A stretch of DNA of 64,000 bases from Methylobacterium organophilum (lineage in GTDB: Bacteria; Pseudomonadota; Alphaproteobacteria; Rhizobiales; Beijerinckiaceae). Of this stretch, positions 17,001 through 20,564 are shown piece by piece; the first letter of the stretch is position 1; each line of letters opens with the position of its first letter. The notes under the pieces are model-generated. The model did no database searches, was not told the origin of the DNA, and saw only the letters and a list, made by a program, of their open reading frames with translations. The DNA lies in the NCBI RefSeq assembly GCF_022179465.1, contig NZ_BPQV01000005.1, positions 186,001-250,000 of the forward strand. Direction: 5' to 3'. The translations under genes were made by a program, and so were the position numbers.

Positions 17001-17651
17001 GGCGGCGCGGCCTGCCGCAGGAATCTGCGGCGGCGGCGGAGCAGCGTCCTTCCAGGGACGAAAGCCGGTGAGCGCGCGGGCGAGTCGAAGCGCTTTCGCG
17101 AAAGGCTTGGTCCACCTCCTGTCGGCCCCAACCAAGAGGCGGCCGGCGTGCCGACTTTGGAGAGAAGCCAGAGACTTGGCGGGACACCCTGTTACGACAA
17201 ACGGAGCGAAGCTCCTGCCAGGGCAGCGAAGGTCTGTTCAGGGGGAAGGCAGTTGCTCGAATGTTGGGTGCCGTGAGTCAGGAAGGCGCCATGATCCGAC
17301 CTGGGCCCGACAGGCGCTGAACCGCCGCTCCCGACCCTTCGCCGACCCTCGGAAGGTCCGCTTTCCGCTCGTTCGGCGGACGGTGATCTACGACCGAAAT
17401 GGGCGGTTTTCTGCCGGTCCGCTTCCGAGCGGCGCAGGTTTGGAGCAGATATCGCCGTTCCGCTCGCTCCCGACCCTTCTCAGAACTACAGCAGGTCCGG
17501 TTGCGAACAGGCTAATTGGGGCGCGAGACCGGACCTACGGCAACCGATTTCGTCACGCTTGAGCACACAGCGGGCGAAATCCTGAAATTGCCCGACATCG
17601 CGGCTGCGGACCATCAGGGGTCGGGCGTTCCTAACATACGGAGACAGTTCC
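17001..17651. repeat. Gene-poor left flank of the low-GC island with degenerate repeats
   Basis: About 650 bases with no credible gene. The 14-mer GCTCCCGACCCTTC occurs at 17327-17340 and 17466-17479, each followed 10-16 bases later by a variant of AGGTCCGNTT, so this is a diverged partial duplication. The style (GTCCGCTTTCC, CGGTCCGCTTCC, GACCCTTC) resembles short dispersed intergenic repeats I know from Rhizobiales. CGTTCGGCGGA (17370-17380) recurs on the other side of the island at 19942-19952. An open frame of 164 codons (17068-17562) has no family features and is treated as spurious. Confidence 0.45.
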
Positions 17652-18023
17652 TCACTTTTTGGCGCCCTTAGTATCTTGGATGAACCACCGACTTTCGTGA
17701 TAAGCACTCTGAAACCCGTGATATCGACTATGGAATGCCTGGAGCGCCCCTTCAAATTGCGCCATCACTAACACGGCATCGCTATACTGCGGCAGCGTCT
17801 CATCGTCTAACAGGTCTAGATATTTGTGCCCCTGCTCGCCATCCAGCAGTTCGATGACATCTTGGAGAATTCTATTCAACATCTTGACTTTGGCCGCACT
17901 AAGGGCCGCGTCAGGTTTCTTTTTGCCGAGATCCTTCAGCTCCCTGAAGAGGCCGTTGAACGGCTCGATGAGAGCATCATAGCCATTCGCCTTATCCTTG
18001 GTCGTATAGAAGTGTGCTGGCAT
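17652..18023 (-). CDS. Small hypothetical protein B of the low-GC cassette
   Basis: A 123-residue soluble, helical protein, third gene of a leftward cassette. Its ATG overlaps the stop of the preceding gene as TAATG (18021-18025), which indicates translational coupling. It resembles the product of that preceding gene: both have KxKxLNxxLxD, then DD-x2-LPxxSD and AQF/AQY-E-x-L in the same order and spacing, so the two are diverged paralogs. No catalytic motif, signal peptide or membrane segment is visible. Base composition is far lower in GC than the housekeeping genes. Function unknown; a structural partner or regulator of the nuclease-like first gene is a reasonable guess. Confidence 0.72.
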   Translation of the reverse strand: MPAHFYTTKDKANGYDALIEPFNGLFRELKDLGKKKPDAALSAAKVKMLNRILQDVIELLDGEQGHKYLDLLDDETLPQYSDAVLVMAQFEGALQAFHSRYHGFQSAYHESRWFIQDTKGAKK

Positions 18024-18409
18024 TATTTTTTCTCGCTTATCTTTTTGGGCGGAGCTGTTCTTATTTTCTCGCTACCCGGCAGATTATAAACCCATCTTCC
18101 CATGTCAATTTTGATATTGTCAGCTCTTAATCGCTCAAGTTCCTCTAGATATTGAGCTAGGATAAATGTAACATCACTATTTGATGGCAGGTCGTCATCA
18201 TCAAAACGCTCGAACCCTTCGACAGGTTTATAAGCATTCCCCAGAACCAGATTGGCATCACTCAATGCGCCGTTCAGAAATTTAAGCTTGAACTTATTGA
18301 CCGCGTCGTTCGGACTCTTCCGCGCCAGCGCAGTCACTTCTCTATGCAGGCCCTCGATCTGACCGCTGATCTTCTCAAGAGCCTCAATCCGTTCGCGTGT
18401 TATCGACAT
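18023..18409 (-). CDS. Small hypothetical protein A of the low-GC cassette
   Basis: A 128-residue soluble, helical protein; the N-terminal half (ERIEALEKISGQIEGLHREV) looks coiled-coil. The start is placed at 18409 because GGGGTG lies 5-6 bases upstream and the ATG follows the previous stop by only 2 bases; an ATG at 18424 inside the upstream gene would add five residues. It is paralogous to the following gene (shared KLKFLN...D, DDDDLPSNSD and AQYLEEL blocks). It is the second gene of the cassette and has the same low GC. I recognise no family. Confidence 0.72.
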   Translation of the reverse strand: MSITRERIEALEKISGQIEGLHREVTALARKSPNDAVNKFKLKFLNGALSDANLVLGNAYKPVEGFERFDDDDLPSNSDVTFILAQYLEELERLRADNIKIDMGRWVYNLPGSEKIRTAPPKKISEKK

Positions 18410-18411
18410 GT

Positions 18412-19785
18412 TCACCCCGGACATTTTCTTCTAAACTCTATATAAGATCGCTTCAATATATCAAGCGGCGCACGCTGCTTACTCTCAAAAACTTCGACCA
18501 TCTGCTCGATATCGACATCCGTCAGCGTGATAATGCTCCGACGCTGGCCAGACCACAGATCCACCGTGCTCTCCATGCGAGCCTTTTTCAAAGGCGAGCG
18601 TGTCACCAGAACCCCGAATTTGCCCAGACTGTCTGTGAGGTATCGGTTCAGCTGGTCAATATGCTGTCGTTCAACCTGGGCGACATTCTTCATTTCGAAA
18701 ACGATCTGACGGCTACCATAGTCGTTGAATATTTCCCGCAGAAACGGATCCTGCTGCCCATTGTACATAATTAGGTCGCGGATCGTTACGCCGCTGTCCG
18801 TGCGGCTTTGGGCAGCGGCAAAGTCGAGATGTGGGTACAGCATTGAAGGAAGGAGCTGGCACATCACATCTTCGTATTTCCGGTCCGCGCCGTCGCCCTT
18901 GCCGGTTGGCAGTTTTTTCAGGTCCGCCAGCTTCCGCCGCGCTGATAAGACCGGGATCTGTGTAAACAGCGGATCGGACGTACAGTCATCGCAGGTGCGC
19001 TCCTTCTCCTTGGTATAGGCGTCAATGACCCCATAATTTTCACGGTTGAAGTTCAGAACTTTGACTTTGTCAAGCTTCTCGCCGGCGTGCGCGACATCAT
19101 CCTGAGGACAGTGGTTCTTGAAATAGTCGTCGTATGATATCCACGGGACGAACCGCAGCCATCGTTTCGGAACCAGCATGATCGGAATGCCGGTTTCCGG
19201 GTTGGATGGCAGCATAACGCCGTTCTCCGTCCTGAACTCCTGGTCCCGGTAGCTGTAAACCTGAAGCCCGTCGTGTGAAACAAGCGGAATCCCAAGTTCC
19301 TGGCAACGGTCTCTAGTAAAGTCGATCAGGAATGATTTGAGGAAGCTGCAGGCGAAATCGCTGATGCGGTCCTTAGAGATACCATCGACATAGAATTGGA
19401 GCTCTTCGAAGTGGCGGAAGCCACGTTGGTTGTACTGTGGGATCGATTCGAAGAGCGTTAATATTTCATCGGCTTTGGCTGGTCCGATACGTTTCCCCGT
19501 TCTGGTCGCGGATGACCCCAGTCCGACTTCAGCGCACTCGGACGAGATGATTAGGGCCCTTCGGGCTTCTTCGCGGCGCCCTGCCTTCGTCAGATAGCCA
19601 AGGTGATTGAAGGCGTTGATCAGCGACGTGTGGAGTGCCTGATCCTGTTGGGACGGTGACCGCCAGAGCAGGAACGGATCGACGTAGAGGGGGATGTCCT
19701 CGTTGAAAAACGGGATCGCGAAATCCAAGGTCGATTGCGGAGTGGCGATCCCGTAGTGATCGGTAAGGCGTGGATTGATCAGCAT
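18412..19785 (-). CDS. PD-(D/E)XK-type nuclease-like protein of a low-GC three-gene cassette
   Basis: A 457-residue soluble protein, first gene of the leftward cassette. The start at 19785 (MLINPRLTDHYGIATPQS) is preferred because the 49 further codons upstream look non-coding. The N-terminal two thirds are unrecognised (FFNEDIPLYVDPFLLW; DGISKDRISDFACSFLKSF). A CxxC pair (CDDC, ~265-268) precedes the C-terminal domain. That domain carries the ordered pattern of a restriction-endonuclease-like fold: Glu305 (KYEDVMCQ), Asp337 (TIRDLIMYN), Glu364-x-Lys366 (IVFEMKN) and Gln378 (HIDQLNRYL). Low GC content and insertion among housekeeping genes suggest horizontal transfer. A DNA-targeting defence role is inference. 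Confidence 0.78.
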   Translation of the reverse strand: MLINPRLTDHYGIATPQSTLDFAIPFFNEDIPLYVDPFLLWRSPSQQDQALHTSLINAFNHLGYLTKAGRREEARRALIISSECAEVGLGSSATRTGKRIGPAKADEILTLFESIPQYNQRGFRHFEELQFYVDGISKDRISDFACSFLKSFLIDFTRDRCQELGIPLVSHDGLQVYSYRDQEFRTENGVMLPSNPETGIPIMLVPKRWLRFVPWISYDDYFKNHCPQDDVAHAGEKLDKVKVLNFNRENYGVIDAYTKEKERTCDDCTSDPLFTQIPVLSARRKLADLKKLPTGKGDGADRKYEDVMCQLLPSMLYPHLDFAAAQSRTDSGVTIRDLIMYNGQQDPFLREIFNDYGSRQIVFEMKNVAQVERQHIDQLNRYLTDSLGKFGVLVTRSPLKKARMESTVDLWSGQRRSIITLTDVDIEQMVEVFESKQRAPLDILKRSYIEFRRKCPG

Positions 19786-20012
19786 CTTAGGGCCGATTCT
19801 ACCACATGCGGGGCGCGAGATGCTCAGACCGCAAGCATTTCTCCCCAATCGGTTGTGAACCTGTGCGACAGCTGCTTGACTGGCCCCGCTCAACGTCCGC
19901 TTGAGGGGCGGGCGCCAACTTCGGCTTTCCACCCGATCCAGACGTTCGGCGGAAGCAGGTCGAATGTCCGCAAGGGGTCAAAACTAGACGCGCTGGCACG
20001 CCTCACCCCATA
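19786..20012. repeat. Right flank of the low-GC island
   Basis: No gene is supported. The stretch 19885-19990 has repeat-like sequence (CGTCCGCTTGAGG, CTTTCCACCCGATCCAGACG, AATGTCCGCAAGGGGTC) in the same style as the left flank, including the shared 11-mer CGTTCGGCGGA at 19942-19952. It presumably also contains the promoter of the cassette, just upstream of 19785. Confidence 0.4.
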
Positions 20013-20049
20013 AAAAATCCGGCCCCACGTCCTGCGGGGCCGGATTTTT
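20013..20049. terminator. Bidirectional rho-independent terminator
   Basis: A perfect 14-bp stem, AAAAATCCGGCCCC pairing with GGGGCCGGATTTTT across a 9-base loop (20027-20035). The A-run on one side and T-run on the other make it work in both directions. It would terminate the leftward small secreted protein gene and insulate it from the island. Confidence 0.9.
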
Positions 20050-20085: not shown

Positions 20086-20292
20086 TTAGCGGTGGGCCGG
20101 GCGGTGGGTGACCGTGCCGGTGGCGGTGACGTCGCGGCTCGGCTGGGTCTGGGCGACGGCGGTGCCGGAGACCGTGCCGCCGGAGACGGCGGCCTGGGCG
20201 GCGATGCCGGCCGGGGCGGTGTAGCTCTGGGCGAAGGCCGGGGTGGCGGCGGCCAGCGAGAGGGCGAGGGCGGCGGAGGCGATGCGGGTCAT
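20086..20292 (-). CDS. Small secreted protein, 68 residues
   Basis: The precursor has a clear Sec signal peptide ([22 protein letters not shown], written here in two parts: [13 protein letters not shown] and AAATPAFAQ) with AxA-type cleavage after residue ~21. The mature part is about 46 residues, rich in Thr, Ser, Ala and Val, and ends in THRPAHR. The start at 20292 has GGAG 7 bases upstream; an ATG four codons earlier overlaps that motif and is less likely. The gene is followed by a strong terminator at 20013-20049. Function unknown. Confidence 0.7.
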
Positions 20293-20564
20293 GAGGGGCT
20301 CCATTCTGGTCGTCGTGGTGCGGCCCGGTGGCTGTCGCCGTGGCCGTCATCCGATGAGCGGTATCTGGGCCTCGCCCCCGCGCCGGAACAGCGGAATAAA
20401 TTCGATCGAACCGTTCGAGAATTTCGAAAAGCCGCCGCGCCGGCGTCTCCACGCGGGCCTCGTGCCGGGAGGGGGCGGCCGGCGTTTTCGGAATCGGGAT
20501 GCTGCGGCCGGGCGGATCCGCGCAGCCCATCGCGCCCGGGCCGCGGCGCGCTATAAGGGGGGCG

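Follow-up and report, generated by a model that had tools for sequence, protein, structure and literature searches.

A low-G+C three-gene cassette

The locus lies within a window of 64,000 nucleotides, the whole stretch of Methylobacterium organophilum DNA analysed here, and has the following layout:

17652-19785, minus strand: cassette of three ORFs in the order A-B1-B2
18412..19785, minus strand: gene A (PDC-M36A), 457 aa, two modules; PDLC04597, E 3.9e-227, residues 2-456
18916..19785, minus strand: N-terminal module of A, about residues 1-290 (approximate boundary)
18412..18942, minus strand: C-terminal module of A, predicted PD-(D/E)XK nuclease, about residues 282-457, with E305, D337, E364-x-K366 and Q378
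18023..18424, minus strand: gene B1 (PDC-M36B type 1), 133 aa; PDLC04599, E 1.3e-49
17652..18023, minus strand: gene B2 (PDC-M36B type 2), 123 aa, paralogue of B1; PDLC04600, E 7.1e-39; separate clade, support 100/100

As described in the first-pass annotation, the three genes run leftward with coupled starts. The start of A at 19785 agrees with the N-terminus of its relatives; an alternative start of B1 at ATG 18409, which gives 128 aa and lies near the B1 ORF starts of several relatives, leaves a 2-base gap to A, whereas ATG 18424 would overlap A. B1 and B2 are joined by a one-base TAATG overlap. The G+C content of the cassette is 0.45-0.56 (500-base windows) against 0.67-0.77 per kilobase in the 64-kb window outside 17001-20000, and third-position values are 0.66, 0.49 and 0.61 in A, B1 and B2 versus 0.97, 0.95 and 0.94 in three flanking ORFs. 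Both the depressed G+C content and the insertion between housekeeping genes had been read from the DNA and are borne out, the flanking ORFs resembling by eye housekeeping genes and not a defence island.

Two minor features flank the cassette. The G+C-rich sequence that separates glpX from the cassette (17286-17504) resembles scattered sites in sister genomes and has a single 40-base match elsewhere in its own genome; it may be a dispersed repeat. On the other side, two perfect 14-base inverted arms enclose a 9-base loop (20013-20049), with T following on the minus strand; by eye this looks terminator-like behind a small ORF (20086-20304), but the terminator scan, which allows loops of up to 8, does not list it.

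The cassette belongs to the PDC-M36 family and is widely scattered

All three proteins match PDC-M36 models in PADLOC-DB 2.0.0, A as PDC-M36A over its full length and both small proteins as PDC-M36B. The cassette is thus a member of an already catalogued phage-defence candidate family, from which we found no difference, and because of these three matches the earlier description of the system as undescribed has to be given up. Pfam and NCBIfam yield only sub-cut-off hints at about residues 359-401 of A, among which that to PDDEXK_3 is nuclease-like, and the three PHROGs families matched below E 1e-5 have no known function. According to PMC12988326 (its reference 15), PDCs originate in the 'guilt-by-embedding' preprint of Payne et al. 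2024 (doi 10.1101/2024.01.29.577857).

Co-occurrence of the three genes had been anticipated, and A-B1-B2 are found in this order in 19/19 loci (the window counted) that have a complete A and sufficient contig beyond it; the contrary outcome, homologues never found together, did not occur. Since 18 other loci share this gene set and its order, the cassette is more than a chance arrangement. A scan of genome_contigs returned 12 homologous loci (62-68% identity in the best segment) from alphaproteobacteria, a gammaproteobacterium, Geobacter/Desulfuromonadales, Chloroflexi, Poribacteria and one further bacterium; B1 and B2 lie behind A in 11 of them, the exception being L009, whose contig breaks off within B1. 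IMG/VR adds 6 loci on contigs classed as viral: L049, L050, L052 and L053 hold A and both Bs (the L052 B1 ORF being short, 105 aa, E 1e-25), L054 has both Bs and an A cut by the contig start, and L051, where the A frame ends after 429 codons, is uninformative on the B genes because the contig stops 116 bases on. All three genes are also borne by plasmids of Methylobacterium (L056) and Leptolyngbya (L057, two records matching at the same place being counted once) and by genome G301. Finally, only residues 2-116 of A are matched on a Falsihalocynthiibacter plasmid (L058:7251-8345), where they adjoin a PaeR7I-type restriction-modification pair; this is an M36A remnant.

Across 398 genomes of the phylum, an A-like match occurs in 15 and A is matched over its length in 2, the window's own genome and G301; B-type genes are found in exactly these 2 of the same 398 genomes, both times with A. 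Exactly two B matches per genome are present in 5/5 homologous genomes searched whole. Transfer of the cassette between distant bacteria, in line with its first description as a small transferred unit, is supported. M36 is absent from all 36 other same-genus genomes searched, 2 of which hold a distant A-like match. This absence and the isolation of the cassette amid housekeeping-like genes would also fit a decayed passenger, no longer working in its own genome; with three intact frames, the catalytic set present and gene coupling preserved, we judge such decay very improbable.

A predicted PD-(D/E)XK nuclease module

Motif and predicted fold agree in supporting a PD-(D/E)XK nuclease core in the C-terminal module of A, as had been proposed from the sequence; the contrary outcome, a predicted structure without this core, did not arise. 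Glu305, Asp337, Glu364, Lys366 and Gln378 lie at the positions first read and are invariant in 18/18 M36A rows; among distant A-like proteins, D337, E364, K366 and Q378 are conserved in 14/14 and E305 in 11/14. Both hallmarks of the superfamily, a conserved catalytic D...(D/E)xK set and a predicted core fold, are found. The confidence of the A model is moderate, with a mean pLDDT of 67 against 48-58 for the remaining four models; searched with Foldseek alone it finds nothing better than E 0.001, and RNA polymerase subunit RPB5 accounts for several of the top-ranked rows. The nuclease module recurs in other settings: L036 (688 aa) has it behind a different N-terminal part, and in L045 (184 aa) it stands nearly by itself. 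A CDDC pair (residues 265-268), earlier singled out as a feature, is unsupported because it is not conserved in the family, the first Cys occurring in 1/13 rows, the window's own.

The predicted fold of the C-terminal module is FokI/R.BspD6I-like, with 10-11% identity between A and these Type IIS enzymes, which have a PD-(D/E)XK cleavage domain, in the fold alignment. A differs from them in that its cassette lacks a methylase; its N-terminal module, modelled at low confidence and barely sampled by the fold rows, is matched to no recognition domain. Shedu (SduA, DUF4263) is a single-gene system; A (P0001) has no match to any SduA model at E <= 1. The methylase gene expected of a Type II restriction-modification system is absent from the cassette, none of the three proteins matching a methylase family; the flanking ORFs between 15500 and 22500 were checked for one by eye only, and some relatives do have methylases nearby.

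The N-terminal module also occurs on its own

No Pfam family is found above cut-off on the N-terminal module, nor on the four free-standing proteins scanned. Its residues D30, P37, E83, G90, G97, D139, S142, D143, P193, P206 and K207 are invariant in 18 rows (6 M36A and 12 distant). The 12 full-length distant A-like proteins (L034, L035, L037-L044, L046 and L047) follow the same two-module plan; these single-gene proteins have both modules and the catalytic set as in A, but share only 20-25% identity with it and have no B partner that we could find.

The module is, in addition, encoded alone on plasmids of Acinetobacter baumannii, Bacillus amyloliquefaciens, Lacticaseibacillus and Rhodococcus (314, 315, 283 and 301 aa; L106:2980-3924, L107:3004-3951, L108:942-1793 and L109:3956-4861). 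D30, D36, E83, G90, G97, D139, S142 and D143 are retained in 4/4 of these, whereas P37, P193 and K207 are not retained in all four. The proteins are too short for a nuclease module; a few tail residues align to nuclease columns, and we take these to do so by chance, including the E and K of the Rhodococcus tail that fall at 364 and 366. With three further genes (303, 345 and 287 aa; L120:2285-3196, L121:3989-5026 and L122:3995-4858), seven free-standing proteins of 283-345 aa are found on plasmids of Proteobacteria, Firmicutes and Actinobacteria. In the plasmid collection, 86 records match the Bacillus N-module protein, 48 of them from Staphylococcus, a count that includes the Bacillus query itself and three M36 records.

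Because D30, D36, E83, D139 and D143 are retained also in the four free-standing plasmid proteins, the N-terminal half may be catalytic or metal-binding. A tentative, and on balance doubtful, extension is that it represents an unrecognised family which plasmids in three phyla carry as a gene of its own and which, within a two-module nuclease, acts as sensor or first active site; M36 would have added an obligatory B1-B2 heteromer as a switch, giving a methylase-free defence architecture with a candidate sensing principle.

B1 and B2 are ancient paralogues

The first-pass annotation counted the genes correctly, a nuclease with two small proteins, but missed the paralogy of the latter. In a tree of 33 B proteins, 16 B1 and 17 B2 are split by one branch (support 100/100), recovered in 100% of 200 bootstrap trees; the tree took in the window, genome_contigs and IMG/VR loci and left out L009, L048, L056, L057 and the short L052 B1. 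Computation thus shows that B1 and B2 are paralogues of ancient origin and that both accompany A as a fixed set: where the PADLOC library calls both small proteins B, the tree separates two fixed types. A single old duplication with both copies retained suggests an obligatory B1-B2 heteromer. B1 is modelled (pLDDT 91) as a bundle of three helices plus a short hairpin, and structure searches returned no informative relative. We found no description of the two-type B arrangement or of the free-standing N-module; since the literature search covered PDC, PADLOC and Shedu only, absence from print is not claimed for either.

Tight coupling of the genes, two small partners alongside A and the presence of the cassette on plasmids (L056, L057) and viral-classed contigs would also suit a toxin-antitoxin or addiction unit, in which A is a DNase toxin and B1/B2 the antitoxin, retained for stabilising mobile elements and not for blocking phages. 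This we consider rather unlikely: no B homologue is found in 13/13 genomes with distant A-like proteins, so the nuclease plan needs no antitoxin of B type.

Genomic neighbourhood and proposed function

Named defence genes lie within about 7 kb in at least 6 of 12 homologous loci:

L005: DUF262-type and AbiE genes on the downstream side and, judged by eye, hsdM/hsdS immediately upstream
L009: an AbiE gene immediately upstream
L010: HEC-05 and a methylase nearby
L011: HEC-03B-like gene nearby
L012: methylase nearby
L013: PDC-S20-like gene nearby

Across loci, the pool of 136 neighbours also includes GmrSD, an N6-methylase and an EcoO109I-type endonuclease. The contrast with 11 arbitrary stretches, an unmatched control, is in the expected direction but only suggestive, because at least one of these, perhaps two, held defence genes too; the association with defence first proposed is accordingly upheld as to the neighbours of relatives, and not as to a firm excess over background.

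On two plasmids from different phyla, M36 is directly behind umuC-type (and umuD) error-prone polymerase genes (L056:6931-7962, Methylobacterium, an IMS/DUF4113 protein; L057:6160-7843, Leptolyngbya, umuDC by record annotation). This position, and the N-terminal module encoded alone on plasmids, could point to a nuclease of DNA repair or mobile-element maintenance instead of a defence system; as umuC-type neighbours were noticed, by eye, in these 2 loci only, and neighbours from restriction, AbiE and other PADLOC families are more frequent, we hold that role to be improbable.

We therefore favour, as the probable reading, a complete, horizontally acquired copy of PDC-M36 whose nuclease defends against foreign DNA under B1-B2 control. 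B1 and B2 would pair as a heteromer, bind A and hold or license it, while the N-terminal module of A would sense a foreign-DNA or infection cue; once released or recruited, A might cut the DNA of the invader or, if the response is abortive, that of the cell itself. As the cassette is without a methylase, self-protection would come from B control or from the cue, not from host methylation. Neither a paper naming PDC-M36 nor a functional test of it was found in the literature searched, and the window holds a complete copy of this catalogued candidate, whose active site, two-partner logic and independent N-terminal module are now specific enough for testing. Were the N-terminal module to prove a general plasmid-borne sensor or enzyme, plasmid biology would be linked to phage defence.

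Several further neighbours were noted among relatives. In Ruegeria (L003:6111-7525) and on a viral contig (L051:3157-4543), seemingly the same small gene pair lies upstream of M36 by eye, the L003 pair having no Pfam family above cut-off. The 184-aa nuclease-only relative of the M36A C-terminus (L045:6812-8196) is directly behind a gene that looks TIR-like by eye, with no family call. Among distant single-gene A-like proteins, one (L040:7462-9060) lies amid genes resembling, by eye, Type I restriction-modification, and the gene of another (L039:6001-9288) adjoins an AIPR (abortive infection) gene (Pfam PF10592, E 6e-38).
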